Both the position numbers and the translations under genes were made by a program. The notes under the pieces were generated by a model that was given only the letters and a program-made list of their open reading frames with translations, made no database searches and was not told the DNA's origin. DNA of 64,000 bases, from positions 558,001-622,000 of the forward strand of contig CANUEZ040000207.1 of assembly GCA_948099385.1 (NCBI GenBank). The letters are read 5' to 3'. This document shows positions 1,005 through 50,760 of this stretch, one piece after another. The stretch is from Fasciola hepatica. Its lineage: Eukaryota > Platyhelminthes > Trematoda > Plagiorchiida > Fasciolidae. Positions within the stretch are counted from its first letter, which is position 1; each line of letters starts with the position of its first letter.

Positions 1005-1240
1005 CGTGAAATAGTTGTGGGTTGTTCACCGAAAGGCTTACGTTTGACGTAGGCCCCTACAGAGAGCCCATGCATCATTGTAGTCCACCGCTTTTTCAGA
1101 AACTTGGTAATACTTTTCAAAGCCAGAGACGGAATGGTGCTAATATCGTGTAGTGTATATATTCAACAAATCATTGAGGGCCAGCTCAAATGTTCGACTC
1201 ACAATCGTTCACCACGAGTTGAAATCTCGGTCAGAGCTCA
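1005..1240 (+). repeat. Decayed tRNA-derived SINE (leader plus tRNA-like part)
   Basis: The stretch matches the SINE at 57,130-57,390. Both share a leader with taggcccctacagaga, then gacggaa(t/c)ggtgct, then the (a)acaaa(t/c)c(a/g)ttgag phrase, then gttcgactcacaatcgttca before a B-box-like gttgaaatct. The A-box part is partly lost and the ribozyme part seen in the 57 kb copies is missing. The outer boundary of the left arm falls inside it, near 1,096. Insertion of the arm breakpoint in this element is an inference. Confidence 0.65.
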
Positions 1241-1845
1241 TTGAACCTTACCACCTAGGTCTCTCTGTACTGTATGTTTGTCCTCTTGAACTATGGCGCA
1301 TTAGGAGAAAGCTGTCTTTAGTGCTTGAACATTTTTTCACGCGTTTGAACATGGAATCCCTCCGTTGTCCTGATGAAACACTATGTGAAATTCTCACGGC
1401 AATACTTCTTTCTATGCAGAATAGCCTCCTCGTGGAATGGCTTACCACAGGGGATGGCCCACTGATATTTCTTCAGTGTGTTTGTTGGCATCATGGTCCC
1501 ACTGTAAGTATTTAGTACGTTTTTAATCCAGCCTAATCCGGCGACTCATATAGAAAGACAGTTATTCATTTAGTATTTCTGAATGAGTCCGGGTGCCTCC
1601 CATTGTTGTCCAGTGATCACTCTTCTAGCTCATGGAAAGCATAAACAAAGAGATGCACTTATGATCCAGGGATACATGGGCTCAGACCTCAGACCGGTCT
1701 ACTTCTTCCGAACATCACGACTTATTCTAGACAGATCCATTCCATTTTGACTTCAAGTGAACACCCCAATAGAACCATTGCCCAAACACAGGAGATCAAC
1801 TTGGTGGTTAATTGGACATCGTACTATGGCAACTATCTTACTCAC

Positions 1846-2025
1846 CAAATCTGGCATTGTCTAGGCCTGTGGTTGTCCTTCTAATTGGCCGTTCAAAACC
1901 TTCTTCCTAAACTTGTTATGCAAATCCACCATTAGTTGGTTCCTTTCTTCTTGTGTGACACCTAATGCAAGCAAGGTGGTGAAAAGATGAAGTAATCCAA
2001 ATAGCGAAACTTCCATTGTTTGCAT
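1846..2025 (-). pseudogene. CAP-superfamily (venom-allergen-like) first exon, broken by a stop
   Basis: Read on the minus strand from an ATG at 2,025, this is a 60-codon exon ending in a consensus donor (TTG then gtgagt) in phase 0. The first ~24 codons form a signal peptide with a Leu-rich core. The mature start carries the CAP N-terminal helix motif DLHNKFRKKV, then NGQLEGQPQA and TMPDL, the usual spacing before the next CAP exon. Codon 55 is TAG where the sister copies have a Lys codon, so this copy cannot make the protein. No second CAP exon is visible between it and the arm end. CAP proteins are secreted alpha-beta-alpha sandwich proteins, often abundant in helminth secretions. Confidence 0.8.
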
Positions 2026-2099
2026 GAAGCACTGCGCTGTTAAGCGATTGTGTACACACTTTGCAGTGAGTCTGATGCAGACGAGTGGTAATATACTAA

Positions 2100-2260
2100 T
2101 TTCAAAACGGGTATCACCCCTGCCCCGTAATCATCAACCCTACTCCAATCATTCAGCGTCTAACATGAGCTAGTTTGGACTGTTGGGCATCAGTTGGAGA
2201 TGAAGAGTTCTGAATCTGAGCAACACAATGGAAAACGTTTCTTAGTATAGTCATAATAAG
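2100..2260 (-). promoter_or_regulatory. Conserved block upstream of the CAP exon (left copy)
   Basis: This non-coding block just upstream of the CAP start aligns with the reverse complement of about 49,560-49,680 and with 26,330-26,450. Shared phrases include atcacccctgcc, the run gtaatcatcaaccctactcc (its right-arm version differs slightly) and aatctgagcaacac. It lies upstream of the CAP exon in all three copies, so it may hold the promoter or 5' UTR. No TATA box is obvious. The regulatory role is an inference from position and conservation. Confidence 0.45.
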
Positions 2261-3299
2261 TCAACCACTTACTTGTGCAATCATCCATAAAAAGGCAAGC
2301 ATTTGGTCAAATTGCAGCCAGAATGCGCTTACAGTGCACTGCATGAGCTCTGCGTTTTTTGATGGAGAAAAAACTCGCTTGATACAATTGCTTGTCTTGA
2401 GAAAATATATCCGGTTCATCACAAGTTACACACACTGCTAACTGACAATCTCTGTGTCACATGCATATGCGTTTCAGACAAAATCGAAACAAACAACAAT
2501 TGGATTTTGACTTTCATTGATACCTTCAATAGCTAGTGGAAATTTATTGGGGGAGTCCCCTTTCATTTAGTGGTTTGAGGCTACCTGCGGTTTGACACAA
2601 GTTCAAGTGCAATTTGTTCTGGTACCTTGAGACAGAGGTTTTCACTGAGGAATCTCACAACCTTTGAGAAAGGTTGCACTGAGGATTCCACCAATGTGAT
2701 GGTGTCAGTACCTCAGAGGTCGGATGACAAAGCGCTTCTAAGTAAAGACACATGCACAGAGAACAACTCAATCAAAAGGCTTATAAGAAGCCTTTCTGAG
2801 TAAGAGAAAGTTAATACAAATCAATTGCTCTCCGAAGTCTACACAAGATCTTAGCAGATCTTAGTCTCACAAGACCAAGAAGCATAGGGAGCCAGTAGAT
2901 ATTCTCCGTTCTTCTAATCTCGATCCTACTGATCATCATATAGGTGAATACAAAGTAGCTAACTAGACGTTGTCTGGGTTATGAGTGTACGCAGTTCAAC
3001 CACGGGATCATTCAAACAAATCTCCCTTTAATTTAGCATATTTTCGCTAATGTGTTGCTTCATTGTCTTATTCGCCTTGGCTTGCTTGCCAAGTTGCAGA
3101 ATATTTATAAATTACGATACTGAACAATCCCTCATCCGGTGAGAATGGTTGTGAATGGGTATTATCAAATGGTTCACTCGCGGAACAGTTTCCATTTTGC
3201 TCTCTCTCTTTGCGATCGGTTTGTTATTTCAGCTGCACGAAGCGTGGTCAATTCCAATTGCAATAAAATTTTGACGGAATAAGTACACATTCTGTTATC

Positions 3300-3415
3300 A
3301 CACATTTTGCTCGATTCGTGACTTCAAAATAACAGCCCGAAAGCGAAATAGAATATCAAAGTGGAAATTTAGAAGATACTTTATTCTTTTTTGTATTGAC
3401 TTCCTGATGGTCACC
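3300..3415 (-). other. Unit X, left copy (third copy of a conserved unknown segment)
   Basis: The minus strand here matches 47,370-47,480 and, more weakly, 27,185-27,300. The common part reads atcaggaagt...acaaaaaagaataaagta (left and right arms), with aaccacaaat(c/g)... or its left variant aagtcacgaat further on. The left reading frame is broken, while the other two copies keep short open frames. The function is unknown. It lies about 1.3 kb upstream of the CAP exon on the same strand. Confidence 0.5.
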
Positions 3416-3529
3416 GTCATTCTGCCCGTTACCACCACTCACTGGTTCTGATTTCACTTGAGCGAGTGTAATGGAATTTTCCTGTCCTATCCAGGACTGC
3501 ACAGGTGAGTACTTCACTTGACTTAACTT

Positions 3530-3899
3530 GAAGTTACTGGACTATGCTGAGAAATACATGAAGCATAAGCGTTGTCTTCTACAAAGGTAGGTTTAGATCT
3601 GTACAAAAAGGCATAATTGACCATCATAATTAGTTTGTTACATTGAGTTGGAGGATTTGCCATATGAGTGGAGCAGAAATGCACCAAAGTCAGAAAGTAT
3701 TCCGTGAACAACAAAATGGTACATGGTAGGCTTGAGAAAAATATGTGGAGGCTATTTTGTCTCCAGGTTTTCTTTCGTAGACTCCTTCAAGATAGAACTT
3801 TGTAGTATCCCAGTATAATAGCACGGTAAAGGTAAGCGACTCGGTATACCCAGAGTAACATCCAGAAATAAAGCGGACGTAATCAAAATAGAACAACAC
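3530..3899 (-). pseudogene. Conserved unknown ORF, broken left-arm copy
   Basis: Minus-strand reading frames encode pieces matching the intact right-arm ORF at 46,914-47,207: SGCYSGY, then YWDTTKFYLEGV, then AYHVPF, and in another frame SDFGAF and the DLNLPL end. At least one frameshift lies between the AYHVPF and SDFGAF pieces. The conserved part has Tyr, Phe and Trp but no motif I recognise. Downstream (lower coordinates) is a cacttgacttaacttgaag run resembling the pentamer tail of LINE-A. Confidence 0.45.
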
Positions 3900-4124
3900 T
3901 GCTAGTTTGCACTCCAGCGGTCTGGTCCACTTGCGGTAGTCGTTATTCAGTCCAAGGATGCAACCAGGTGTTTTGCATGTCTTCCTTTGGCTTATTGCAT
4001 TCGCTCCCTCTCACGTGGTCGCGTTCATTGTCACTCCGCAATTGGCCATAAATGAGTTATGCGTAGTGTGCTGTTTAATCAGTAATTAGTGAGCACAATT
4101 CACCATACTTCGTGAATCGACGAC

Positions 4125-4200
4125 ATTTCCATCCGGGACTCGAACCCGGTGCGTAGTATTTGGAGTCGTAAGTGGTGATACGAGGTCATCCAGGCTGAAT
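4125..4200 (-). repeat. tRNA-like SINE head, left copy
   Basis: On the minus strand there is an A-box-like tggatgacctcgtatcacc, then a B-box-like gggttcgagtcccggatgg about 35 bases on, the layout of a tRNA-derived SINE head. The right-arm partner at 46,590-46,680 keeps ccggatgacctcgcattacc and gagttcgaatc. No full cloverleaf with an acceptor stem is evident, so this is not called as a tRNA gene. Confidence 0.55.
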
Positions 4201-4250
4201 TCAGGACACTTTGAGCACAGTAAAATCTTACTTACTCCAGGCCACAGTTT

Positions 4251-4715
4251 TCAACCGTAGCCCTGGACACGGAAATTTATCGGTTTTCGTGCAATTCGCG
4301 TACGCTCACCCAAGTGTTGAAAAGACTGTCCGAACGATGTCTGGAAGTAAAATTGGCATGTTGGAAATAATAGAAACCTGCTATTGGGGTTTCGTATTAA
4401 AAAACGGTCATTGTGTTGCGGAAATTTACAGCAGTTCCTTTTCATTTCTAGCACGTGTGTGATAAATTTCAGATAGAGATGATAATAAAAAGCCAGTCGC
4501 AACATTCCACAATCAAATTGTGACCAGTTTTGGGCAAGCGAATGATCTTTTTCGCTTTTTTGTGAATTTTTGAAATTATTCTCGAGAGGGTTATGGGAGA
4601 ATGAATGATGCCTCTTCGACCGAAATGCGGTCCCATACACGAAAGTAAATTTGTAATAACTGCTCACACCTCTAGCAGTACAGATGTAAGTAGGAAGCCC
4701 CAACTGGGTCGACAA
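4251..4715 (-). other. Unrecognised 154-codon open frame, partly kept in the other arm
   Basis: The frame is open for 154 codons on the minus strand. The right-arm partner (about 46,100-46,560, plus) has the same order of pieces, such as LAQN(W/G)SQFD followed by YYHL and LEFIT/LKFIT, but is broken by stops. No domain, signal peptide or clear splice border was recognised. Because surrounding non-coding DNA is conserved to a similar degree, the open frame may be chance or an old exon. I do not assign a function. Confidence 0.25.
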
Positions 4716-5119
4716 CGACAGAGAGCTGGGGAACAGCAGTGTTGACCGGTAGTGCAGGATTTCCAGTCTCTCAATACAAGCATCAACACTAGATCATTCG
4801 AAGAGAGTGCCTCAGGGCTGATGCTATAGAATGTCTAGGTGTGAAGTTTCTGTTCTTGTTAATCTTCGAGTCCTTCCAAGTCTTGAGAAAATCAGTCCTG
4901 TAAATATTTATGCATCTGGGAAAAAATTGATTTGAGAATACCATCCGTGTAAGGAAGATAACAGGCAAGATGCAATAATAAACATGAAATTGTGGCAAAA
5001 TGTCTAGGCAATCAGAAAAACTCAAATAGTTTTTCTTGCGGATTGAAAAATACGACCCAGGTACAGATTTCACGGTTTGTAATGCAACTGATTGGTCTTT
5101 CTCTTAGGGATCGAAACCA

Positions 5120-5370
5120 TCATCGGAATCACTATCACCATTATCATTTAGATCATTGTCATCCAGATCATCGTCATCATCACCATCATCACCGTCATTA
5201 TCATCATCAGCCTCATCATCAAGTTGTCAAGCCCATCCTCATCCGAATTAATATTATTATTTTCATCATCCAGATCGCCATCATCATTATCACCATTGAA
5301 ATCATCATCATGGTAATCAACGAAATCATCAAAGTCATTATCACTAACACTAACAACGAGCAAAAAGTTC
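5120..5370 (-). repeat. CAT/ATC-rich block, degraded Asp-rich frame (left copy)
   Basis: The plus strand is dominated by cat/atc triplets; read on the minus strand this gives Asp/Asn/Glu-rich peptide. It begins like the right-arm frame (CRN(F/T)LLVVSVSD) and ends in DSDSDDGFDP before a stop, as the right copy ends in DSDYDFDP. A frameshift in the middle turns the Asp run into Met/Ile. It can be read as a degraded coding tract or simply as a triplet microsatellite. Confidence 0.55.
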
Positions 5371-5617
5371 CGACATTTAAAATTATCTGACAATGGCAGT
5401 GTGATTACTAGAGCAGACAGAGAGAATTCGTCTACTTTGAAATGAATCAGATTTCTATTGGCAACCTCACTCGCTAGTTTTCTCTCGTGAGGTGGTCGTC
5501 TCAGAGAAACCATAACTGTGATTTGCAGATAGTCCTGTACAAGTTAGTCAAAGATAACCTTGAGAATGATGATGCTGTCGTCGTGCTTGGCATTTTTGAT
5601 ATAATTACCATCTTCAG

Positions 5618-5678
5618 TTGGGTGGACAAAGTTTCTTTGAAGCATATGCCCGATTTCGTGGTTGCTGACGTTCATCCG
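5618..5678 (+). other. 61-bp exon-like segment with conserved splice borders (left)
   Basis: It is preceded by ttaccatcttcag and followed by gtatgc. The right-arm copy (44,820-44,879, minus strand) keeps the same acceptor and a better donor, gtaagc. Coding in one frame gives SLKHMPDFVVADVH in both arms. The two copies differ by one base in length, so at least one would be out of frame. It could be a micro-exon or a chance match; the gene it would belong to is not visible. Confidence 0.35.
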
Positions 5679-6542
5679 GTATGCATATCCGGTACTCCTA
5701 TCTATTCATTTATGTATAGTACTTTTATCACGAATGAGTACTCTTTTATCTCACTCCATGTCGACTCACACCGGAGCGATCAAGGAAAATTCAGATATAA
5801 ATTCAAGCACCTAATGCAAATGCGATAACTTACTTCTGGATATCACTTCAAACTGCAAAATTCTAACCGACATTTTGCTATTTTGTTGTTTACTGATCTT
5901 CGTTTGTGTCGTGACCAGATGTGCTACTGTTTACTCAGTGCTAAACTTATACAGCTACGTCCAAATAAAATTTCTGAAACACATATATCGGCCATAAAGC
6001 CCTGAAATTTTGCATGGTCTTAGCCTATGGTCGTCCGGTCAGCTGACAGTTCGATAATTTGCTCCGAATTCGTTGAACCACTTCAAAATGAGACCGTTTT
6101 TTCACCGTTCTCTGAGGGTGTCGCGGAATTCGATTCACGTTTGACGAGAACAAAGTGAAAATCTCAGTTGACTAAGTTTTCTCCTCTCTTCTAGGAATTC
6201 CAGGTGCTTGTGAAATTTCTTTGCAAACCATTTGCACGTACATTTTAATAATCCTCCGGTCGTGAGGAAAATGAGAAAAATTGGGGGTTTAATTGAATCG
6301 AGATGCTTTCAATTAGACATAGCTATGAATCTATCCACAGATTGCACGCACACGAGATGACTTCATTTTGTATGTGCACTAGTGAAAGGTGATGGGTTTG
6401 GTGCAGTTATCCAAGCCGGTTGGAGGTGGGGGTGTGTGACAGACCTCCGTACCTGATCTTGCAGTACTACTTACATCACAATCTGATAACGGTGTCGTCG
6501 ACAAGTGCATACTTCTCACAAAAAATTAGAAACTCAGGCTAT

Positions 6543-6728
6543 TTAGCAGTCATGTTTAATCCTGTTCGAGATTCTGAGGAACGCGAGCGCGTCTTGTAGC
6601 GCCTTTATTTTGTTTTTCATATAAAATAATTCTGTGGCACGAATTGGATTGAATGAAGTCCTTCGCTCTTCATAGGCTATTTGTGTTGCATTGTGCTTCT
6701 CGATTCTGAAAAATACTTTACTGGACAA
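6543..6728 (-). other. Unknown conserved ORF with exon-like border (left copy)
   Basis: On the minus strand an acceptor-like agtatttttcag precedes a frame with IEKHNATQIAYEERRTS, then a charged, possibly helical stretch (MKNKIKALQDALAFLRISNR) up to a stop codon. The right arm (about 43,765-43,935, plus) starts identically (FRIEKHNATQITYEERRTS) and then breaks into stops. This looks like the last exon of a gene intact only in the left arm. The family is not recognised. Confidence 0.35.
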
Positions 6729-6854
6729 TCAGCGGTAGACTGTTATAAGATCAAACAAACAACTCACAACCCACACAACTCTCAAACAAATAAACCTACT
6801 GACAAAACAATCAGGTAACTGCTGTTGTCATTCTCAGTAGCATATTAAGAAAAG

Positions 6855-7289
6855 TCACCCTCCCGAGGGTGGTTCCACTTTCGGTGGACAAATCTTATAT
6901 AGTGGCCCGATTGCCCACAAATTGAAGTATACAATCGTTGGCAGTTCACCTTTATCATTCACTGTTATTATTCCCTTCAGGTATACACCAACACCCTGAT
7001 CAGCGATCAAATTCTTGGGGCAAGAATGAGTAAGCAAATGGTAAGAATCAATGAGGCGGACACTTTACCAATGGGATACAACATTTGAAACTTCGATATT
7101 TTTTTCCAAATATGCCTTTACTCGTCCTAGTGGATGGGTTTTCAGCACAATGCTCATTGGTTCATTTCCCTTTCGATAAATTTGTTTTATATTCGGACAA
7201 TTGTAAGGAATAAAATAAGAACTTATTTTGAGCAGCTTTGACAAATAAAGATAGCAAAATGAGTAGGAACAAAGTGTTTCTGAATTCAC
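6855..7289 (-). other. Unknown conserved ORF pair (left copy)
   Basis: Two minus-strand frames lie end to end. The upstream one (7,289-7,065) ends VSNVVSHW with a donor-like gtaaag directly after. The second (7,037-6,855) contains LIADQGVGVYLKGI, YFNLWAIGPLYK and CPPKVEPPSGG. The second is clearly kept in the right arm at 43,349-43,549, with many silent or conservative changes. That suggests past selection, but I cannot name the protein. The Pro/Gly-rich end could be a linker. Confidence 0.35.
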
Positions 7290-7390
7290 CAGACATCAGT
7301 AAGAGGTGCTGCTGTATGTTAGGAGACGGAGAAGTAAAGATAAATGATGGGAGTCTGGTGGGTGTAGAAAATGTATTTATACCTGCCTGA

Positions 7391-7408
7391 TGGGGGCAAA
7401 TGCCCCCA
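7391..7408. repeat. Perfect short palindrome (tgggggca aa tgccccca)
   Basis: Eight bases pair exactly around a two-base centre in otherwise AT-rich DNA. It lies near one edge of the left-arm-only segment. It could be an element end or a transcript hairpin; no partner copy was found at the other edge. Confidence 0.6.
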
Positions 7409-7619
7409 GGTTATTACATATGCACAGGATAATTCGAGTCCGATGAGTGTTTCGGGCAAACTTTTCGCATGCAAAACATTATTTTTCTGTAATAAAATTG
7501 GTCACACCAAAACGATAGACACTACGCTATCGTGATGTAACTTTGATGGCTCTGTGCACAGTGATAAACTCGATCTTTCGAAGCCCCCTCAAAGATCACA
7601 GGTGGAAAATACGAAATTT

Positions 7620-8015
7620 TTAGTAAGGTGTTGTAGAACATGTAAGGATCTGAAGTAAAGGATAATAAAAGACAATCATCACATCTTTTTGAACGAATTG
7701 TGAGTGTGTTTGGATCAGATGAACTGACCGAACCTTGGGTATAGTTTTGTTGTCAATATGGTAAGCACAGCTACTCTCAGTTGAAGATAGACTTCTACTT
7801 ATGTCGATGGAGAACAGTCGGTGAACAGTTTGGTACTTTGTGAAGTGGACGTGACGACGTGGACCAATTGATAATACAAGATTAGGAGTCACTCCGTTTA
7901 GAAAATTGGAAGTTATTTTCAGATTTGATCTTAGCCGAAATATCATTGGAGTGCTATTCCAAATTGCCTCACTAAATCTGGTGAGGAGACATTTTTGCCT
8001 TCGAATCAGTCCCAT
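7620..8015 (-). other. Unrecognised 131-codon open frame
   Basis: A minus-strand open frame with a mixed, protein-like composition, starting MGLIRRQKC and ending CSTTPY. No domain, signal peptide or membrane segment is convincing. It lies downstream of, and on the same strand as, the candidate secreted exon at 8,223-8,363, so it could be a later exon of that gene, but no good acceptor was identified. Coding status is uncertain. Confidence 0.2.
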
Positions 8016-8222
8016 TTATTGATACAAACGTATGTACTGATCATAACTAAAACCGTACATAAAAGCTTGTAGGTCTACTGATAGACCTAAACGGCGCTTC
8101 TGGGTGGTTTGTGTGTTGGTACGAAGAGTTTGGTTGATTCGGCTCTGGAGGGTTCACACAAATGTTAACCGCTGATTGGTTTATTGATCGCTTGACCACC
8201 GATCACGTGCTGTCTGCTTCAC

Positions 8223-8363
8223 CTGACTGAGCTGTCCATTTGCAATTTGCTGGACCGTTTCTTCGTACGTATTCAACTGAGAGGTCGTCAGAAGCCTTGA
8301 GTAAGTAGCAAATAAAAAACCCAGAAAAATGGCAAAAATTGGCACCTGAAAGTACTCCTGCAT
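8223..8363 (-). CDS. Candidate first exon of a secreted protein
   Basis: A true ATG opens a 47-codon exon on the minus strand that ends in a consensus donor (CAG then gtgaag) in phase 0. Residues 6-20 form a hydrophobic core typical of a signal peptide (VPIFAIFLGFLFATYS). The mature part ends YEETVQQIANGQLSQ. That tail resembles the VLNGQLEGQ part of the CAP first exons nearby, so a divergent CAP gene is possible but unproven. No following exon was identified. The exon lies in the segment present only in the left arm. Confidence 0.35.
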
Positions 8364-8589
8364 TGGAGAGACTCAGATATGCCATCCAGTGTTGTGCATC
8401 GTGTGTTTTATTAGTGAGATAGTCTCTAGGCAATGACAACATACTTGAATGTATGCTTGGGTTTTGTAACTTTGACCTACCAACAAAATTGAAAGCAATT
8501 CTGTTATAAAGAAAAAGTAAAGGAAAATGCTTTCTAGTACAATCGAAGGAGAGTGACATGGAGTTGACTGAATGTGATAAGACGTCTAC

Positions 8590-9760
8590 TCTACAGCTTT
8601 TGTTTCGGTATGTAAATCGATAATCATCCTCAATAGCGATGCACTATTTACCACGTTTACGAAATTTATCGAAAACACCTTCAGAAAAACAACAAAGAAT
8701 GTAATTAGGCCTGCCCATTTCCTTTCGGGGTGTTTAGGGGATACAAGCTGATCCCCAGTGGTCGGCGATAGTGCTTCCTTCGATGCATTCGTGAAAAAGC
8801 ACCGCAAGAGGTTCGGGAAAGTGGAGGATACACTCCTTAAAGACGGTTGGTTAAAATTCGTCCTTTCAGCTCGGTTGGCAATTAGCTTGGGCTGACAAAA
8901 AAGCATCCATATTTAGGCTAAGTTCAAAATTGAATTCCCATAACACCATGTTGAGTGTTCGTAGTGTACAAAATATCAAAATAAGCGCCGTAATCGTCTT
9001 TTAGGTTACTTGCTACAAGAATCCCATGCCACAGAGCTTCTTCATCATGTTCCAAATTTGACGATGGCTGGAGTCTAAAAATATAATTCATACATACTGT
9101 CTGTCCATTTTTGATTTAAGAATGGATTATGTATTCATTTGCTTCACTGATGTATGATTTCCAGTGACATCAGCAAGTTCTTTCTATCTTCTCGATGTTT
9201 TTACTTAGGGTAAAGACAACTTGGTGGGTCGGATATAAGTTGACTCTAGTGGGCAACAAATATCGTAACAACATTTCAAGTAACTTGATAGACGATCGTA
9301 ATAGACTGAAAGAGATGGCTTGTAGAACTGACAAAAATCAGTTTCTCAAATCTTTCTCGTGGCAATGTCAGGTTTTTTACGTCGAACTGCCTACGGAGAA
9401 TCGTGCGGTCAGAAGAACGGGTATGTACAACATGGCGTGACTTGGAAAAAATATTGAGGTGACCTTTGGGGGTAAAGTGATCAGAGCCAGATAAGGGGGC
9501 TCTTATTTAGATGGAGGTTATATCAACATCGTTGACATAGATGAGATCAAGCTGTACATTGTCTCTTAGAGGAGCTCAAAATATTCTCTAGCGCGAGGCA
9601 CTTTACAGGTCTAAAGTCAACTTGGTCAGAATCTCCGGTGACCAAGACGGGGTGGGTGGGGGTGGGGCCTTTGAATATGACCGCACTATTCCATCTCGAT
9701 CGGAATACACATCATATAGCTGTACACACATCTTCAGCTTTACTGTTTTTCTCGCCATAG
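8590..9760 (-). mobile_element. LINE-B (CR1-like) fragment, left copy
   Basis: On the minus strand it aligns to the plus-strand element at 41,850-42,960. The right copy shows the endonuclease end (VVTGDFDQV, then LDFIYVNDFDITSI, then GSDP) and the start of the reverse transcriptase (AAGPDEFQPTFLKNC). Here the same parts are present but broken by stops; the RT piece is recognisable as RCFFTNASKEA followed by PERKWAG. The element is truncated before the catalytic RT motifs. It stands head to head with LINE-A. Confidence 0.65.
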
Positions 9761-9867
9761 TTACCATAGTAGTTGTTGTGCCGATAAAGTAATGCCTAAT
9801 CCGAGAAAAAAAACGTGCTGTTATTTAATGAAAAAAATAAGTAGCGGGGACCACTCAGCTTAACTGA

Positions 9868-12440
9868 TATCTTTTGGTCATATGTTACACAATATTCATC
9901 AACAATGCTCGATCTTTACTGGGCAATTTTCCAGTACCGTCGGATTGTTTTGAGACGAAAGAATACTCCCAGCTCAGAGTAATGCTTCTGCAAGAAACCT
10001 GGCTCCAAAGTGACGTTGACGATGAGATCGTTACACTTGATGTTTTTACGGGATACCGCATGGATAGCCCTACATCACATCGCCAGCGAGGTGGCGGAGT
10101 TATCACGTATATAAACAATCGTTAAAGTAAACGGGTCAGAAATAATTTTAGCTATTACACGATCTTTATTAGCTGCTTGATACATTTTTGCAAACCCACG
10201 TTTTTGAGCACTTTTCGATTACTTCTGTGGATAAATGTACATATTCCCCCCAAACGTTCCGCGACAGATTACCTAGAATTTGTTGATTCAATCTCACAAA
10301 TTTTGGTAGATTATACTGATAACTCATTGAACATCGTAGCTGGTGATTTTATTCGTTCTGGTGTGAGCTTCATTTATCCGTTCGGTCTGACGAACATTTT
10401 CACATTTCCAACTAGAATTGAAGCAATTCTGGACTTTCTTTCAGTTAAAAAACCATGTCATTTTTCATTTCCCATCACTCTCACCTAGGCTCCTCTGACC
10501 ACGCAATAATCGGAACCTCACGCAAGATCTAGTCATACGAATCCTGCCCACTTCACGGGAGGCCACGGGAAATGGTTTCCAAGAAAAAAATTTATGCATT
10601 CTCAGACACGGACCTTTCGGTTTCCTGGGATCAAATCATGGGTTATTTAAATTTTCACTTCAATCTTTGCTACCCAGTTGAAACTTTGCATTTGCGCCCT
10701 GATCGTCTGTCACTTTTCAGTCTCAAGCAATTTATTCGCAAGAGGGAATGCGCCTTCAAAACGTCATAATCCTCCAGCTGTCATGATTCTAACAAAAATC
10801 AATAAAGACTGAGTTACGGTGCTTCCACTCCAACTGCGCGCGTACCCTCCTAACCAACAGAAGTCATTGCGATAAATGGGAACACTTGCAGGAATTAACT
10901 AGTGACTCATCCGCACTCAAATCTGATGCTTTTAACGTAGACGAGCTCAACAAATCATTCGACAGAGAAGAGGAACGTTTTCTTTCCCGCACTGCTTGAA
11001 AACAGCCTATCTAAGGAACATGCGTTTACCTACATCCCTATACTCTCTGATCCTTCGAACTAATATCTGAGGTAAAGATGATTTCGGACAGTTGGAGAAG
11101 AGTAGCTATCAATCCTAATCCCATGAAAATCTCTTTCTCCAAAGACGGAAATTTTTTGAACTTTCCAGATCCTGATCAGTTGACTCACCGACGGTCACAC
11201 TCCTTTTTCGATGCTCTCACCATCTTGACAAATTACATTCTGTCCGAACTTGACAGAAAGACCTAAGCGGTAAGAATACGTTCTCTAGACTACAGGGATG
11301 TAATAAACTGCGCCGACAGAAACAAGCTGTTTTCCCTTCTTTCTCTCTCTCTCTCTCTGGTGTTCAGCTTTCACTTATTTCTTTGATGTGAGATTACTTT
11401 CACAATCGTCAGTTTTTCACACAGCATAACGGAAGAAACCTCCTCTCTTGTTACAGATAGCCATGGAGTCCATCAGGCGTCAAGTTGTCTCCTTATTTCA
11501 ATTTCTACCTAAACTTCTACTACTCATGTACAGGAGATTACTCTTCTAATCAGATATGCGGATGATGTCATATTTGGCTGGCGGTATACCTGCAATCCTA
11601 CATTCTCTACTCTACTAAATGGCGTCACTGAAATTTCAAATTCGTCTCATGCTCACAACTTAGGTGTTAACCATGTCAAGCGTGGTGACATTGCAGTTTC
11701 TCTTTTTTAAGGCGGAAAGCAACCGAGTTTTCAAAACGACTGCGTTTCCACCTAAATAAACGGGGAACAACAGAACCATTTTGATTCAGTGAAATACCTC
11801 GGAGTGCTGGACCATAACTTGACTTGGTCAAAACATGTTGCTTTTATTTTTGCAAAACGAGAAGCCTGTTTTTCTATTTTCTATGCTTTAAGTTCCACTC
11901 CATGCCCACTCATCTTATCAAAAGCCTCGTATTCTCTTGTGTCCTACCTCGTTGCCTTTACGTTTCACCCGTCATTTTTCCCGGCCTGTTGTTGAAGAAC
12001 TTCGAGTCCGTTGGTAATACCCTGAAGCCTTCATGGTCCAACGGCAGCATACCCCGACGACACTTTATTCACTTTGTCAAATCCGAACAGAGCAAAGTTT
12101 GCCAAAAGTTGTCTACAGAGATTCTCATCGATTCTGCTCATCCTCTTCACAAAGACCTGATGAAATGCATATCCGTTTCTTGCACCTGTTCTCCGTACAA
12201 ACACATTTATCCACGCACTAGGATAAACAGCTGTGGATCCATCCCGACCTGGTCAGACATTTGCACAATGCGGCTTATATAATATCAGAACTAACAGGAC
12301 ATTTTGGAATTACACGAATCCTAACCACCCATTCCCCAGGGTTCCAATTTTTCGGGACGTGTACATGGTTATATGAAGGTTAAATATTCACCTCTCGGGG
12401 TGCATAAAGCAATTACTTGACTTGACTTGACTGACTTGAA
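9868..12440 (+). mobile_element. LINE-A (CR1/Jockey-like) copy, left arm
   Basis: A dead non-LTR retrotransposon. The endonuclease part is at 9,880-10,480 (LLQETWLQSDVDDEIVTLD, then RGGGVITYINN). The reverse transcriptase follows; its catalytic YADD is intact at 11,555-11,566 within IRYADDVIFGW, followed by VKYLGV and the C-terminal region to about 12,290. Many frameshifts and stops break the frame. The 3' end has a ttgacttgacttgact-type pentamer tail at 12,413-12,437. The part up to 11,870 has a partner in the right arm; the last 570 bases do not. Confidence 0.85.
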
Positions 12441-26256: not shown

Positions 26257-26329
26257 ATGACGTATACCTGCATCCCTTTTATGAATACCATCACCAGCAC
26301 CACTAATACCAACGCCACGATCATCATCC

Positions 26330-33630: not shown

Positions 33631-33639
33631 TTCATCAGG

Positions 33640-36310: not shown

Positions 36311-36319
36311 GTAGAAGAT

Positions 36320-41849: not shown

Positions 41850-42960
41850 AAATGTGTACGGCTATATGATGTGTATTCCGATCAAGATGGAACAGCACGG
41901 TCATATTCAAAGGCCCCACCCCCACCATGTCGTGGTCACTGGAGATTTTGACCAAGTTGGCGTTAGTTCTATAAACTGCTCCGCTCTAAAGAATATTACT
42001 AGCTTCTCTGCAAGAGAAAATTTGCAGCTTGATTTCATCTATGTCAACGATTTTGATATTACCTCCATCTAAATAAGAGCCCCTTTATCTGGCTCTGATC
42101 CCTGAACCCCAAAGGTCACCTCAATATTTTTTCCAAGTCACGCCATGTTGTACGTACCTGTTCTTCTGACCGCAGGATTCTCCGTAGGCAGTTCGACATA
42201 GAAAACCTGACATTGCTACGAGAAAGATTTGAGAAACTGATTTTCGTCAGTTCTACAACCCAGCTCTTTCAGTCAATTACGATCGTCTGTCATCTTACTT
42301 GAAATTTTGTTACGATATTTGTTGATCACTAGAGTCAACTTATATCCGACCCACCAAGTTTTCTTCACCCTGAGTAAAATCATCGAGAAGATAGAAAGAC
42401 CTTGCTGATGTCACTGGAAATCAAACATCACTGAAGCAAATGACTACCTAATCCATATGAAATCAAAAATGGACAGGCAGTATGTAGAAATTATGCTTGG
42501 AGACTCCAGCCATCTCCAAATTTGGTACATGATGAAGAAGCTCTATGGCATAATATTCGCATACCGGGCATCCCAAAGAACGATTTTAGCGCTCATTTAA
42601 ATATTTTGTACACCATAAACACTCAGCACGGTGTTACGGGAATTCAATTTTTGGACCAACCTGGATATGGTTGCGTTTTTGTCAGCCCAAGCTAATTGGC
42701 AACCGAGCTGAAAGGACTCGAAATCATAGTGGCTGCGGGACCTGACGAATTTCAACCAACCTTCCTCAAGAATTGTCTCTCATACTTACACGAACCTCTT
42801 GCGGTACTTTCTGACAAATGCATCGAAGGAAGCACCATCGCTGACCACCAATGATCAACTTGTCTCAGCAAAACACCCAGAAAGGAAATGGGCAAGCCCA
42901 GTTACATTCCTTGTTTTCCTTCCAAAAGTATCATAAAAAACATTCCTAAACACTTTTTGC
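41850..42960 (+). mobile_element. LINE-B (CR1-like) fragment, right copy
   Basis: The plus strand encodes the endonuclease end (VVVTGDFDQVGV, SFSARENLQLDFIYVND, then GSD) and, after frameshifts, the RT start (AAGPDEFQPTFLKNCLSYLH, then LSDKCIEGSTIADH), the usual L..KAAGPD..P..LK block of CR1-like LINEs. It breaks off at about 42,950, before the catalytic RT motifs. It stands head to head with LINE-A, about 0.2 kb apart. Confidence 0.75.
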
Positions 42961-43348
42961 ATGCGAGACGTTTGCTGGAAACACTCATCGGACTCGAATT
43001 ATCCTGTGCACATGTATTTATCTGGATGTGTTTTCTCCCATCAGCCAAGTACAAATTTAAACTTTTTTTACTCCCGGACAACCTACCATCGTTTATCTTC
43101 ACTCCCCTGTCTCCAAGATGCCTTGTCCCGACTCATTTTGCTATTTTTATTAGTAAACGCTGCTCGAACAAAGTTCTTATTTTATTCCTTAAAATTATCT
43201 GAATGTAAAACAGATTTATCCAAAGAATAATGAAGTGACGAACAAAGCACTGAAAAACCATCCAATGGAATGAATAAGGCCATGTTTTGGAATAAATTTC
43301 AAGTGTTTCAAATGTTTCATCCCATTGAAAAATTGCCCGCCTCATTGA

Positions 43349-43549
43349 TTGTTACCAATTGCTTACAAATCTGGCTCAAAACACTTAATCGCTGATCCGA
43401 ATAAAGGTGTCCACCTGAAGGGAATAACAACAGTGAATAATAAAGTTGAACTGCCAAACAATAAATACTTCAATTTATGGGCAATCCGGCCACTATATAA
43501 GGTTTGTTCACCGAAAGTGGAACCATCCTCGGGAGGGTGGTTTTTCTAA
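43349..43549 (+). other. Unknown conserved ORF (right copy)
   Basis: The frame includes KHLIADPNKGVHLKGITTVN, YFNLWAIRPLYK and VEPSSGG, closely matching the left-arm frame at 7,037-6,855. Differences are mostly single residues, and the frame is open in both. The protein is not recognised. The preceding exon-like piece (left 7,289-7,065) is broken here. Confidence 0.35.
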
Positions 43550-43764
43550 ATATGCTACTGAGAATGACAATATCACAATATCAGAGGCCGAGATTTGTGC
43601 GCACAAAAACAATGAACGTGGAAAAAAAGCAAGTTTTTATCACTTTGCCTTTTAAAGGAGATCACTTATTCAATCAAATAAATTGAAATCTCAAGTCAGC
43701 TCTGGTTTGTGAGTTATTGGTTGTTCGATCTTATTACAATCTACAGCTGATTGTACAGTAAAAT

Positions 43765-43935
43765 ATTGTTCAGAATCGAAAAGCACAATGCAACACAAAT
43801 AACCTATGAAGAGCGAAGAACTTCATGCAATGCAGTTCGTACCCAATAAATATTTTATGAGAAACAAAATCAAGACGCTACAAGATGAGCTCGCGTTCCT
43901 CACAATCTCGAACAGGATTGAACATGACTGCTAAA
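43765..43935 (+). pseudogene. Broken copy of the 6,543-6,728 ORF
   Basis: FRIEKHNATQITYEERRTS is kept, after which stops interrupt the frame that is open in the left arm. Confidence 0.4.
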
Positions 43936-44819
43936 TAGCCTGCGTTTCTAATTTTTTTGTGAGAAGTATGCACTTGTCGACGACACCCTTATCAGCTTCT
44001 GATGTTCGTAGTACTGCAAGATCAGGTACGGAGGTCTGTCTCACTCCCCCACCTCCAACCAGCTTGGATAACTGCACCAATCCCATCACCTTTCACTAGT
44101 GCACACACAAAATAAAGTAAGTGCGTGTGAGTGTGATCTGTGGATAGATTTGTAGCTATGTCTAGTTGAAAGCCTCCGGATTCAATAAAACCCCCAATTG
44201 TTCTCATTTTCCCCACGACTGGAGAAATTTCATTCTGATGACAGGGTTCCTAAAATGCAAGTGCAAAAGGATTGCGAAAAAATTTCGTAAGCAGCTAGAA
44301 TTCCTAGAGGAAGGAAGTAAACTTAATCAACTGAGTTTTCCAATTTGTTCTCGTCCAACGTGAAGTGAACTCCGTGACACCATCAGAGAACGGTGAAAAA
44401 ACGGTCTCATTTTGAAGTGGTACAACGAATTCAGAGCAAATTATCTAACTGTCAGCTGACCGGTCGACCATAGGCGAAAACCATGCCAAATTCCAAGACT
44501 TTATGGTCGATATATGTGTTTCGGAAATTTGATTTGGACGTAGCTGTAGAAGTTCAGCACTGAGTAAACAGTAACACATATGGTCACGACACAAACGAAG
44601 GTCAGAACACAACAAAATAGCTAAATGTCGGTTAGAAGTTTGCAGTTCGAAGTGATTTCCAGAAGTAAGTTATCGCAGTTGCATTGGGTGCTTGAATTTA
44701 TATCTGAATTTTTCTTGATCGCTCCGGTGTGAATCGACATGGAGTGAGATAATTGAGTATTCACTCATGATACAAGTACTATATATAGATGAATAGATAG
44801 GAGTATCGGATATGCTTAC

Positions 44820-44879
44820 CTGATGAACGGCAGCAACCACGAAATCGGGCATGTGCTTCAGAGAAACTTTGACGCCCAA
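44820..44879 (-). other. 60-bp exon-like segment with splice borders (right)
   Basis: On the minus strand: acceptor ttaccatcttcag, 60 bases encoding (in one frame) GVKVSLKHMPDFVVAAVHQ, and a consensus donor CAG then gtaagc. It is the partner of 5,618-5,678. Borders kept in both arms support a real small exon, but its parent gene is unknown. Confidence 0.35.
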
Positions 44880-45420
44880 CTGAAGATGGTAATTATATCA
44901 AAAATGCCAATAGCGACGACAGCTTCCTCATTCTCAAGGTTATCTTTGACTAACTTGTACAGGACTATTTGCAAATCACAGTTATGGTTTCTCAGAGAAC
45001 CGTTCTAAGCGGATCATCCACTCACATTCCTGATGTACAAATTAGATTGTTGTGAGCGTTTATTCCAATTTTTGCCAAAATCTGTATCTTCAAGTTTGAT
45101 CTACCAAAGTGATCAATCTTCATATTCATGGAGCATTCAATATGTGGATCGAAGAGCGCGTGAACTACAATTGTACAACAAACAAATATGCACGAATTCA
45201 AACATGTGGTCACTGCACTCAAGTTGTTCTTTCTAACTTACTATCATCATCACTTTTTGGGATGTATTCTGCAGTATTTGGTTTATGACTGGTAATTTGA
45301 GTCGAACAAATCACGAAGAAAGACTGGCGCATGTGTGCGGCAGTCGTAATCTGATTTGTTTCAACGTCGGCGAACTGTTTGAGTCTGCTCTAGTAATCAT
45401 ACTGATATTGACAGATAAAT

Positions 45421-45535
45421 TTGAAATGTCGAAACACTTTGCTCGTTGTTAGTGTTAGTGATGATGACTATAACGAATTAGATGATGACCGTGTTGATGA
45501 TTCCAATGATGATGATAACGGTGTTGATCTGGATA

Positions 45536-45573
<38 letters not shown>

Positions 45574-45738
45574 GATTCGGATAAGAATGAGGTTGACGAT
45601 TCAACTGATGATAATGATAGTGGTAATGACGGTAATAATGATGATGATGATTTGGATGATTCGGATGATGATGATGTTGATGACGATGATCTGGATGATG
45701 ATTGTGATAGTGATTCGGATTATGATTTCGATCCCTAA
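45421..45738 (+). other. Asp/Asn-rich acidic ORF (right copy)
   Basis: A 105-codon frame reads CRNTLLVVSVSD, then a long run of Asp and Asn with an (AAT)11-like core near 45,540-45,570, ending DSDYDFDP and a stop. The degraded left copy shares both ends. An acidic low-complexity protein exon and a plain GAT/AAT microsatellite are both possible. The overlapping Met/Ile and His-rich frames are shadows of the repeat. Confidence 0.35.
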
Positions 45739-46589
45739 GTGAAAGATCGACCAGTTGCACTGCACCTGGATCATATTTGCTACTCCGCAAGAAAAACTGT
45801 TTGAATTTTCTTCATTGTCTGGACTTTCTGCCACCACTTCCATCTTGTTTATACATTTTATCTTATCTTATCTTCCTTACACGGATGGTATTCTCAAATC
45901 AATTTTTTCTCAAATGTATAAATATTTACTGGACTGATGTTATCAAGTTTGGGAAGGACTCGAAGATTGACAAGAACAAAGTTTTCATTCCTAGACAAGC
46001 TATAGCATCAGTCCCAGGGCACTCTCTTCGAGTGATCCAGTGTTGATGCACTACCGGTTAACTCCCTTGTTCTCTAGCTCTCTGTCGCTGTCAACCCAGT
46101 TGCGTCCTATTTTCATCTGTACTCGTAGAGGTGTGAGTAGTCATTACTAATTAACTTTGGTGTAGAGGACCGCATTTTGACCGAAGATGCATCATTTATT
46201 CTTCCTTTTCCCTCTCGCAGAAAAATTTCAAAAATACACGGATTTGCTTGCCCAGAATGGGTCACAGTTTGATAGTGGAATTTACTGAAGTGCTACATAT
46301 TACCATCTGTGTCTGGAATTCATCACATACATGGGGGGGGGCAATTAAAAAGGAACTGCTGTGAATTTGTGCCACTCTACGATCAGTTTTAATCCAACAC
46401 TTTGATAGTAAATCTCAATTACTTCTAACATGCCAGTTTTGTTTTCAGCTGACGAAAAGTAGTTTGGACAGCCTTACCGGCACTTGGGTGTACTTACACG
46501 AACTACACGAAAACTGATGAATTCCCTTGTCTGGGGTTACAGTTTGCTACCATGGCCTAGAGTAAGTAAGATGAACTGTTCCCCATGCA

Positions 46590-46680
46590 TTCGAAAGTCA
46601 CCCCGGATGACCTCGCATTACCGCGTGCAACTCAAAATTATATGCATCGAGTTCGAATCTTAGATTGAGATGTTGTTCAT
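46590..46680 (+). repeat. tRNA-like SINE head, right copy
   Basis: It has ccggatgacctcgcattacc and, about 35 bases later, gagttcgaatc, at A-box/B-box spacing. It is the inverted partner of 4,125-4,200. Confidence 0.5.
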
Positions 46681-46913
46681 TTACAAATTGTGGTGCAGTA
46701 TTCCTATTAATCACTGAATAAGTAGCTGTTTGCTTATAACACAGTAATGGATAACTGTGGATTGTCAGTGAACTCGGCTACGTGACAGGAAGCGAATGCA
46801 ACAAGTTAATGGAAGGCAGGCAAATCACCTGATTGCATCCTCCGACTGGATAAAAACTGCCTCAAAGTGGGCTGGACAGCTGGAATGCAAGCTAACACCA
46901 TTTTTATGTTTTG

Positions 46914-47207
46914 ATGCTAGCTTTTTTTTCTGGATGTTACTCTGGGTATTGTACCCGGACCTCAACCGCGTCGTCATATTGGGATATTACAAAGTTCTAT
47001 CTTGAAGGAGTCTGCGAAAGTCTACCTGCAGATAAAATAGCCTACACAATTCTTCCTAAAGCCTACCATGTGCCATTTTTTATTCACGGAATAGTTTCTG
47101 ACTTTGGTGCATTTCTGTTCCACTTGGCAAATCGTCCAACTGATTGTAAGAAACCAATTATGAGGGTCAATTATGCCTTTTTTACAGATCTAAATCTACC
47201 TTTATAG
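46914..47207 (+). other. Conserved unknown ORF (right copy, intact frame)
   Basis: From an ATG at 46,914 the frame runs 97 codons: FFSGCYSGY, SYWDITKFYLEGVCESLPAD, KAYHVPFFIHGIVSDFGAF, NRPTDCKK, and the end DLNLPL with a stop. The left copy is broken. It is followed by aatttcaggtcaagtcaagt, a pentamer run. No family is recognised. The start has a short hydrophobic stretch but no clear signal peptide. Confidence 0.35.
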
Positions 47208-47369
47208 AGGACAACGGTTATGCTTCATGGGTTTCTTACCGCAGTCCAGTAATTTCAGGTCAAGTCAAGTCAAGTAAAATACTCACTTGTGCAGTCCTGA
47301 ATAGGCCAGAAAACCTCTGTGGTACTCGCTCAGGTGAAATCAAAACCAGTGGATTGTGGTAACGGACAG

Positions 47370-47643
47370 AGCGACGATGACCATCAGGAAGTTGATACAA
47401 AAAAGAATAAAGTATCTTCTAAATATGCACTCTGATATTCTGTTTTGCTTACTGGTTGTTATTTTGCAACCACAAATCGAGCAGAATTTCTGGAAATGGA
47501 GTTATTCAGTCACAATTTTATTGCAATGGGAATTGGCCACGCTTCGTGCAGCTGAACCTGTTACGCGGATGAACCATTTATTAACAGACGCAGTCACAAC
47601 CATTCTCGCCGGACGAATTATTGTTCAGTATCGCAATTTATAA
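47370..47643 (+). other. Unit X, right copy with open frame
   Basis: The frame includes RKLIQKRIKYLLNMH, ILFCLLVVILQPQIEQ and WELATLRAAEP, and ends QYRNL. It matches the central unit at 27,184-27,390 and the broken left one at 3,300-3,415. A hydrophobic part suggests a membrane segment. Function unknown. Confidence 0.4.
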
Positions 47644-49399
47644 ATGTTTTGTAACAAATATTGACATGTGTTAATATTATTGGGAGTGCCCGAGATCAAC
47701 CCGACGAATTTGGCAAGCAAACGGAGACACATGAGACAGAAAAACTTTACATTAGCGAAACATCCGCTGAAATAGAGGGGGATTTGTTTGAATTATCCCG
47801 TGGTTGAACTCCATCCACTCATAACCCAGACATCGTCTAGTTAGCTACATTGTATTCACCTATATGATGATCAGTAGGATCGAGATTAGAAGAACGGAGA
47901 ACAACTATCGGCTCCCTATGCTTCTTGGTCTTGTGAGACTAAGATCTGCTAAGATCTTGTGAAGACTTCGGAAAGCAAGCGATTTGTATCAACTTTCTCT
48001 TACTCAGAAAGGCTTGCAATAAGCTTATTGATTGAGTTGTTCTCTATGCATGTGTCTTTACTTAGAAGAGCTTTGTCATCCGACCTCTGAGGTACTGACA
48101 CCATCCCATTGGTGGAATCCTCAGTGCAATCTGTCTCAACAGTTGTGAGATTCCATAGTGCAAATATCTGTCTCAAAGTACCAGAACCGTGTGCAGTTGA
48201 CTTCCTGGCAAACGGTGGGAAATCTCAAATCCATGAATGTGTCCAGAAAGGAGACTCCCCAATAAATTCCCACTAGCTCTTGAAGGTATCAATTGTATTT
48301 CAACGAATAAGAAAAACCAACTGCTGTTTGTTCTGATTTTGTCTGAAAAGTAAATTCATGTGACACAGAGACTGTCAGTTAGCAGTGTGATAATTTTTGC
48401 TAAACCGGATATATTTTCGTAATACAGACAGTTGAACCGAATGATCGAAATTCTTTGGGATATTGTTCTTCTTCTTATACATTTCCGTCTTGTTGCAGCT
48501 TGCCCACTGACAGTGGAATGTGACACCTTTGTGGTTCATCATACAAACAGGCCGACAGCCACAGGCATGATGAGGGGAAGTGATTATCTCCAGAACAGTC
48601 TGTAACAGAAAAAGCTAATCCCACCAACACGAGCAGGAAAAACCGAGTGTCCTAGATTAAAAGCTTTGGAGCAAAATATGATTCGGTTGAGCGTAACAAA
48701 AAATGTATATTTATGAGGCATGTTTTATGTCGTTTTGCATCACCCAAAGGCAACTATCCCTTCATTGGGTATCACTTTCCACTGGTTTTATCGGAAAGTA
48801 TTTCGTAAAATATCACCATTTTATCGATGACTGCACAAGGAAGCAGTTGACTTATCATGACTGTGCTAAGAAACGTTTTCCAGTGTGAATTTCATCCCCC
48901 CTCCTCCCCCAAACAAAGTGGAGTTAAGTACCAAGAATCCGTAATTAACTCCTCATTAGATTGTTGCGATCAACTAGAAGATTGGCCACGTGAGTAGAAC
49001 AAGAATGCACGAAGTCTGAAGCTATTTCGTGAATAAGAGAATATTACATGAAGGGCTTGAGAAAAAATTTGAACGCTACTTTGCCACCAGATTGCGTTTC
49101 ACAGAAACACAAGCCTGTGACACAACCGGGGTGTGCACCCCAGAGTGGCCAGTTCAATAACGGGTAACCTCGGAGTGTGCTTGCACGGTATTCTCAGCTC
49201 CAGTGGTGTGCTTGTGCCGTTTCGCTTTCTTCTGAATTGTCGAACATGTGGTGCCACGTGGACTCAGTTGGCATGTGATCTTTGGTTTCGGATTTTCGTA
49301 GGGTTTACCGTCGGTGCTACAACAACAAAATGGAAATATACCGTACCCTTAACTTGAACAAACTTGTGCTCTAAAAAAGGTCTATTTCGTTCCCGTTCA

Positions 49400-49680
49400 A
49401 TGCCATCTTGAGCTCCTAATAGGCAAAGCCATGGAATGTTGTTATGACTATCATTCTCCGTGATCGCTCGAATTATTGTCCCTATTGCATCAATGTTCAC
49501 TGGTTCACATGAGAGATTATTAGAGTGAGTGGGAATGCAATTGGTGATTGACTATGTTGCTCAGATTTAGAATACATCATCTCCAACCAGTACTCAACTG
49601 TTCTCGCTAGCTCTAGTTAGAAGCTGGATGACTGGAGTAAGGTTGATGATGGTGAGGCAGGGGTGATAACTTTTTTGAGA
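49400..49680 (+). promoter_or_regulatory. Conserved block upstream of the CAP exon (right copy)
   Basis: The minus strand of this block matches 26,330-26,560 and 2,100-2,260. It sits directly before the truncated CAP exon on the plus strand. Regulatory role inferred. Confidence 0.4.
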
Positions 49681-49689
49681 GAAGTATAT

Positions 49690-49757
49690 AGACACTCGTC
49701 GTTTCAGTCTTATTGAAAGGACAACCACAGGCCAAGACAATGCCACATTTGGTGAGT
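49690..49757 (+). pseudogene. CAP first exon, right-arm copy, truncated
   Basis: Only the end of the exon is left: GQPQAKTMPHL followed by the donor gtgagt, identical in layout to the left (1,846) and central (25,901) copies. It keeps the Lys codon that is a stop in the left arm. The signal peptide and CAP helix are missing; alignment with the left arm suggests a deletion of roughly 0.1-0.15 kb joining upstream sequence to the exon's last third. Confidence 0.6.
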
Positions 49758-50385
49758 AAGATAGTTGCCATAATACGATGTCCAATTAACCACCAAGTTG
49801 ATCCCTTGTGTTTGGGTAATGGTGCTATTGGGGGCTTCGATAGAAGTCAAAATGGAACAGATCTGTCTAGAATAAGGCCTGATGTCGTGACGTAGTACGA
49901 TGGTCTGAGTTTGGAGCCCAAGTGTTCCTGGATCATAAAAGTATCGTTTTGGTTTTACTGTCTAAGAGCTGGAAAAGAGATCACTGGACAACAAGGAGAG
50001 GCACCAGGACTCACTCAGAAACACTGAACGATCAACTGTCCTTTGATATGAGTCGCCTGATTAGGCTGAATTAAAATCCTGCCTGAAGCTTACAATGGAA
50101 AAATGTACCCACAAACACCGAAAAATATCACTTATTAGATTTTTACTAATAAACAGAAAAATATTTTTTTCACCTGTATCTTATTATTCTTTTGAGAACA
50201 ATAACGGTACATACCGAAAGGAGTTTATGATAGACAGGAAAAAGGACAGAATTTCTATGTTGCATTGTGTGATGCCATGAAATAATGGTGACCTGTTGGG
50301 AAGCAATTGAAGATAAAATAATTTGGTCTACTGTGAAGCCGGTTTTACCTGTGATTATGAATGTGGCTTAGCTTTGAAAGAGTCC

Positions 50386-50706
50386 TTACAAGAGAAGTGA
50401 ACCATCTCCTGATGTAGGCCATTCCACGAGGAGGTTATTCTGCAAGGAACGAAGTATTGCCGTGAAAATTCCGCATAGTGTCTTATCATGCCAAAGGAGG
50501 GATTCCATGTTCGAACGCGTGAAAAAATGTTCAAGCACTAAAGGCAGCTCTCTCCTAATGCGCCGTAGTTCAAGAGCACAAACATAAAGTACAGTTAGAC
50601 CTAGATGGTAAGGTTCACTGAGCTCTGACCAAGATTTCAACTCGTGATGAACGATTGTGAGTCGAACATCTGGGCTGGCCCTCAATGATTTGTTGAATAT
50701 ATACAC
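50386..50706 (-). other. Outer arm ORF, partner of 1,153-1,515
   Basis: Both arms keep an open frame with YHLGL(S/T)VLYVC and LVLEHFFTR(L/S)NMESL (120 and 106 codons). The frame begins inside the SINE leader, so the start is not genuine. The high amino-acid similarity follows the high DNA similarity here. I do not recognise a family. Confidence 0.25.
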
Positions 50707-50760
50707 TACATGATATTAGCACCATTCCGTCTCTGGCTTTGAAAGGTATTACCAAGTTTC
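50620..50760 (-). repeat. SINE leader at the right-arm boundary
   Basis: On the minus strand: gaaacttggtaatacctttc, then gccagagacggaatggtgct, then the tgttgaa and cattgagggccag phrases, as at 1,096-1,190 and 57,235-57,310. Homology between the arms stops in it; the RTE element begins immediately outside. Confidence 0.55.

Follow-up and report, generated by a model that had tools for sequence, protein, structure and literature searches.

The window analysed here, a stretch of 64,000 nucleotides of Fasciola hepatica DNA (assembly GCA_948099385.1, contig CANUEZ040000207.1, positions 558,001 to 622,000), contains two arms of 10.8 and 11.0 kb that lie in inverted orientation around a centre of about 28 kb. 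We consider it very likely, with a probability of roughly 0.8, that the arms are one old local inverted duplication of mixed DNA and that both copies have since decayed. Self-BLAST of the window, together with a more sensitive arm-to-arm search, recovered 11 collinear blocks on the anti-diagonal (1096-11862 versus 50763-39812), with E-values down to 0.0 and alignment lengths of up to 3.2 kb. As a null, the reversed, non-complemented window was compared with the window, which gave 18 matches at E ≤ 1; among the best 10 of these, the top match was 78 bases to a TA microsatellite (E-value 1e-11), and the best match outside simple repeats had an E-value of 0.012. Since this null is far weaker than the arm blocks, a chance origin of the arm homology is excluded. 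The original prediction had placed the arms at 1,096-11,870 and 39,815-50,740 around a 28-kb centre and had named self-alignment on both strands as a check; the alignment bore out this geometry, at nearly the same limits. It also revealed two homologies that the prediction lacked, a direct match between 1-978 and 53993-55617 and a third copy of arm sequence at 25859-28469 (Table 1).

Global alignment inside the blocks showed that the arms agree at 7,326 of 8,759 aligned pairs (83.6% identity), the differences comprising 801 transitions and 632 transversions, with a K80 distance of 0.186 between the arms. A few bases of arm 1 sit in two overlapping blocks; when these were counted once, 16.4% of 8,725 pairs differed. 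The divergence earlier estimated by eye, about one base in five, was of the right order and slightly too high, the value without gaps being one in six. The blocks contain 75 gap events, and large indels occur between the blocks in addition. Eight large arm indels were checked, and no exact target-site duplication of at least 5 bases was found within 8 bases of their ends; we think, therefore, that most of the large indels are deletions. The best terminal inverted match among these eight was 16/25, a value for which no null was computed. The anchors between the arms had been described as coding and non-coding. Their collinearity is confirmed by the 11 blocks, whereas the coding-looking parts examined are broken, and the codon-position test revealed no convincing coding stretch in the arms among the best 25 stretches inspected.

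The arms share one order of contents. Starting at the outer end, both hold part of a repeat unit, here called E, an exon-1 relic resembling a venom-allergen-like (VAL) gene, a spacer, a second exon-1-like relic, a further spacer and a long interspersed nuclear element (LINE), which points toward the centre in both arms. Under the preferred reading of one inverted duplication, the ancestral block, 10.8 kb or longer, would already have held VAL-like exon copies, the LINE and part of a repeat resembling a short interspersed nuclear element (SINE). This block would have been copied locally, in reverse orientation and about 28 kb away, with its breakpoints probably lying in repeats. Both copies would then have diverged through substitutions and indels, and short stretches of the arms may have been homogenised by conversion while the arms were still similar.

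Table 1. Positions of the arms, relics and repeats within the 64-kb window
Feature	Positions	Strand	Remarks
Arm 1	1096-11862	+	Repeats at both ends extend beyond their arm 2 equivalents
Arm 2	39812-50763	-	Reverse-complement homologue of arm 1; ends within LINE (39812) and repeat unit E (50763)
Centre	11863-39811	.	27,949 bases; reverse-transcriptase relics, microsatellites, third old copy
VAL-like (SCP/TAPS) exon-1 relic, arm 1	1804-2095	-	Signal-peptide-like start and domain beginning; in-frame stop
Remnant of that relic, arm 2	49712-49793	+	Exon mostly lost
Third copy of VAL-like exon 1, centre	25859-26165	-	Frame broken near signal-peptide part
Second, older exon-1-like relic, arm 1	5980-6200 (approximate)	-	BLAST match 6005-6159 to third copy, E-value 1e-5
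Second exon-1-like relic, arm 2	44310-44530 (approximate)	+	BLAST match 44408-44492 to third copy, E-value 7e-4
Third, older copy of arm sequence	25859-28469	.	59-78% identity per BLAST piece; one part flipped relative to its neighbour
Degenerate non-long-terminal-repeat retrotransposon (LINE), arm 1	9868-12437, start uncertain	+	Frames resembling an endonuclease and a YADD reverse transcriptase; TTGAC repeats 12417-12431
LINE counterpart, arm 2	39812-41600	-	Without 3' end
X	1-978	+	Flank of arm 1; direct match to 53993-55617, 83-84%; reaches window edge
X'	53993-55617	+	Oriented as X; interrupted by 664 bases
Repeat unit E	57144-57531	+	tRNA-like and type I hammerhead-like matches, both under Rfam cut-offs
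Second, shorter copy of unit E	56799-57037	-	Inverted relative to first; matches 57265-57501
Old copy of unit E	1017-1240	+	Straddles outer end of arm 1; shared with 57144-57388

Arm 2 is probably the daughter copy, because both its ends fall in repeats that extend further in arm 1. At its inner end, arm 2 breaks off at 39812, some 575 bases before the LINE 3' end seen in arm 1, and at its outer end position 50763 corresponds to 1096 of arm 1, which lies within unit E, a repeat that begins about 79 bases further out (near 1017). LINE insertion requires the 3' end of the element, so that the LINE of arm 2 would be the truncated one. When 11863-12450, which holds the LINE 3' end with its TTGAC repeats, was compared with 13001-64000 of the window, this end was not found in arm 2, the search giving 4 weak matches with E-values of 0.03-0.6. 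Most simply, the block would have broken within the LINE and unit E when it was copied. Several points weigh against this account. A later deletion in arm 2 would look the same, and the direction of copying and the conversion, both read from a single genome, fall short of proof. The second copy of unit E covers only 57265-57501; the part of E missing from arm 2 may thus be no true part of the element, and the end of arm 2 may lie some 40 bases beyond the element. The LINE itself was recognised by eye from motifs (endonuclease-like, YADD, YLGV and, in arm 1, the TTGAC-repeat 3' end); Pfam gave no LINE match, the protein database gave none with the reverse-transcriptase frame of arm 2, and TTGAC repeats also occur in arm 2 at 47259-47273, away from the LINE.

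The divergence between the arms is patchy. Counted in 400-base steps, the variance of arm differences was 7.8 times the binomial value. Segmentation, in which the gain at the first change point was 12.6 versus a largest value of 5.5 in 60 permutations, yielded 8 segments with identities from 71.3% (3813-4503) to 93.7% (1096-1363). In the three segments of highest identity (1096-1363, 5500-6930 and 9026-9554), gap events number 0, 0.36 and 0.38 for every 100 pairs, compared with 0.80-1.61 in the other five. This patchiness, with the fewest gaps in the similar stretches, is suggestive of old conversion between the arms and is not proof of it; past short conversion tracts fit somewhat better than constraint, and differences in mutation rate are also possible. 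The alternative for this one step, that the patches owe their high identity to conservation as regulatory or RNA sequence, or to a low mutation rate, seems to us possible though doubtful. It draws on the patch at 5500-6930, which holds 5629-5696, the homologue of a weak match to the hammerhead HH9 at 27816-27884. However, the same patch also holds a broken exon-like relic, and Rfam was empty at E ≤ 1 in 5400-6900 and 43600-45100. Moreover, in the seven pieces matched to the third copy, the arms are 79-93% identical to each other and 61-68% identical to the third copy, and the third copy is no closer where the arms are more alike. Two points weaken the case for conversion, namely that these seven pieces are only those that BLAST could match, with none in the least similar segment (3813-4503), and that the longest exact runs are not above the null, the longest exact match between the arms being 52 bases versus maxima that averaged 43 and reached at most 74 in 500 permutations.

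Three other explanations of the arms were weighed against a single decayed duplication. An assembly or scaffolding artefact that joined paralogous or allelic sequence appears highly improbable, given that 16% divergence and many indels are far above ordinary allelic difference and that the window contains no N (0); the same divergence, the 75 gap events and the large indels between blocks uphold the earlier statement that this is an old genomic duplication and no echo of two alleles. That the arms represent two opposite insertions of one large mobile element is scarcely more probable. The region is rich in relics of mobile elements and both ends of arm 2 fall within repeats, but the content of the arms is mixed, a pair of VAL-like exon relics standing beside spacer, LINE sequence and a fragment of a SINE-like repeat, and the repeat at one arm end is not the one at the other.

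It is likewise very improbable that the window is a living flip-flop locus whose arms still recombine, so that the 28-kb centre exists in both orientations. Recombination between repeats requires long near-exact stretches. Given 83.6% identity, a longest exact match of 52 bases and a spacing of 28 kb, recombination between the arms is unlikely today, and the suggestion that they fold or recombine and thereby invert the centre is not borne out by this one sequence, which fits a centre that inverted in the past as well as one that never did. We think, from their sequence, that the arms are inert, with no function seen. The patchy divergence and the geometry speak for such a locus, the latter resembling the flip/flop region of yeast chromosome XIV, where, in the available part of the report, 4.2-kb repeats with 97.6% identity lie 24 kb apart (PMC9731477). 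Both systems have kilobase inverted repeats around a centre of 24-28 kb. In the account of the yeast region, however, the arms are near-identical and repeatedly homogenised, carry live genes and flank a centre that re-inverts, whereas the present arms have decayed and are not kept alike along their length (PMC9731477). In place of the near-identical arms maintained by conversion in an active flip/flop, the window holds arms with 83.6% identity and a 52-base run.

The VAL-like pieces are relics and not genes. With the open piece of the third copy as the query (25898-26026, minus strand), the better of two PDB matches was VAL4 (4p27, E-value 0.047), a protein of Schistosoma mansoni. A two-sequence profile, built from the third copy and arm 1 pieces, which are 50% identical, placed VAL4 first of seven matches in 177,635 sequences (E-value 0.0037), with Ves v 5 (E-value 1.1) and Ancylostoma secreted protein 1 (E-value 2) among the lower matches. 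Judged by their names, three of the seven matches, VAL4, Ves v 5 and the Ancylostoma protein, presumably belong to the VAL (SCP/TAPS) family. Read by eye, and from the letters alone, the frame of both the third copy and arm 1 completes a codon just before GTGAGT (phase 0). The intron phases of group 1 SmVAL genes are given as 0/2/0/2 in the available text of PMC2270263, and the phase 0 exon end agrees with the first of these. A group 1 VAL gene has five exons and an intact frame; here, each copy examined bears a stop, a frame break or a deletion, and the second exon-1-like relic is broken in both arms. The assignment to VAL is itself weakened by several results. The E-values are weak, neither Pfam nor NCBIfam linked the pieces to the family, the protein database search with the arm 1 exon piece gave no match, and a later VAL exon was not found in the window by motif patterns.

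The third copy and the flanks suggest that the order of the locus changed on a smaller scale as well. The exon side of the third copy (25859-27033) runs in one sense relative to arm 2 (49793-48965), and the adjoining part (26878-28469) runs in the opposite sense relative to arm 2 (46995-47975). This arm 2 part is flanked by an inverted repeat pair with 60% identity (47011-47467 and 48671-49105). An inversion between these repeats in one lineage would explain the flipped part, although the case is incomplete in that a matching distal repeat was not found in the third copy. The third copy lies close to the axis of the two arms (25.2-25.9 kb), a position that was not counted as evidence.

Segments X and X', the latter beside arm 2, differ from each other about as much as the arms do, and their orientation is direct, not mirrored. 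Either X is an independent mobile relic, or the outer segment at 50.8-57.1 kb turned round once the duplication had taken place. Bearing on the mobile-relic option is a transposase-like frame that overlaps X' at its inner end; a DDE_3 transposase frame relic was found by Pfam at about 55455-55817 (E-value 6e-4, or 1.1e-5 with a short piece), and the 664-base interruption of X' has a possible target-site duplication of 5-6 bases. A flip of the outer segment by way of the copies of unit E is possible but unsupported. In the junction test, identity was 77% of 79 pairs at 1017-1095, 68% of 41 at 1096-1136, 81% of 48 at 1137-1185 and 75% of 55 at 1186-1240, and the step in identity at 1096/57227 that an inversion between the copies of E might leave was not clear. 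Part of the third copy and X' look like two smaller changes of order resembling inversions. A fuller history, in which the duplication included X and 50.8-57.1 kb was later flipped between inverted hammerhead-bearing SINEs while the arms still exchanged short conversion tracts, is in our view unlikely. If it were true, the DNA just to the left of the window would match 50,764-53,992 in direct orientation, and the locus would preserve, in legible form, a history of inversion driven by repeats within a VAL cluster of a flatworm.

Unit E combines tRNA-like matches of 24.3 and 23.5 bits (below the Rfam cut-off of 29) with hammerhead-like matches of 28.8 and 21.9 bits (below the cut-off of 34; E-values 8e-5 and 0.015 in a 901-base search). 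In pairing a tRNA-like part with a hammerhead-like motif, it resembles Sm-alpha and Sj-alpha, short elements with a tRNA-derived part and a hammerhead motif, which the available text of PMC2770079 describes as SINE-like schistosome elements. The Rfam matches of unit E lie below the curated cut-offs, and the likeness is one of architecture only. The two inverted copies at 56799-57531 are 96% complementary over 209 bases and lie 284 bases apart, and weaker traces of E were seen at 24884-25293, 1017-1240 and 50616-50763. A 27-base pattern from E had no match in viral and prokaryote DNA collections, as expected for a eukaryote. The HH9 match at 27816-27884 (minus strand) reached 32.2 bits, compared with a cut-off of 52 (E-value 3e-4), and its region is 72% identical to 44802-44869 of arm 2, the arm 1 counterpart being 5629-5696.

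We read the window as repeat-rich eukaryotic DNA because it has few long open reading frames (only 8 reach 150 aa in the 64 kb when the bacterial code is applied), no tRNA gene detected by ARAGORN and a GC content of 38-45% in 2-kb steps. Two weak signs, the VAL4 match and the tRNA-like and hammerhead-like parts of unit E, would point to a flatworm, perhaps a trematode. The Pfam scan with long read-through frames covered 9001-32400 and 51001-60999 of the plus strand and 1-9999, 17001-42000 and 54001-64000 of the minus strand; plus-strand 1-9000, 32401-51000 and 61000-64000 and minus-strand 10000-17000 and 42001-54000 lay outside it. Over this roughly 61% of the two strands, the profile scans found no intact gene. 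A reverse transcriptase match at about 16771-17163 had an E-value of 1.6e-6 and 28.4 bits, the cut-off being 29.6. The overlapping segment 16808-17262 is related, in opposite orientation and with 66% identity, to 61089-60630, where Pfam gave a reverse-transcriptase match at an E-value of 0.11 only. An IBR_1 match (E-value 0.08) was taken as chance, and searches of short pieces against Pfam and NCBIfam gave no further accepted family, only chance-level matches to unrelated families. A short repeat occurs at 39683-39793 and 33754-33876, the first copy lying at most 20 bases from the inner end of arm 2.

The kind of event seen here is already known. In the available text of PMC5613093 and PMC2270263, VAL-type genes of S. 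mansoni have undergone local duplication, tandem and proximal, the duplicated blocks are about 10 kb long and many duplicated sequences are retrotransposons. The present locus shares with these the local duplication of VAL-like sequence, the block of about 10 kb and the retrotransposon content, and both arm spans exceed the length of at least 10 kb applied to segmental duplications in PMC5613093. As described there, however, the S. mansoni survey set a lower limit of 90% identity for the blocks that it counted, whereas the present block, at 83.6% over 8,759 pairs, is inverted and its VAL-like pieces are broken; we therefore term it an old duplication only. No publication title on this locus was found in the literature searched, which consisted mostly of titles and the beginnings of abstracts, and this carries little weight. 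The locus is a genuine but unexceptional trace of the history of this genome and raises no new mechanistic question. It demonstrates that one sequence can be enough to recover an old inverted duplication that falls below the usual identity threshold and to place part of its history in order of time, and it offers one example of the possible growth and decay of VAL-like gene clusters.

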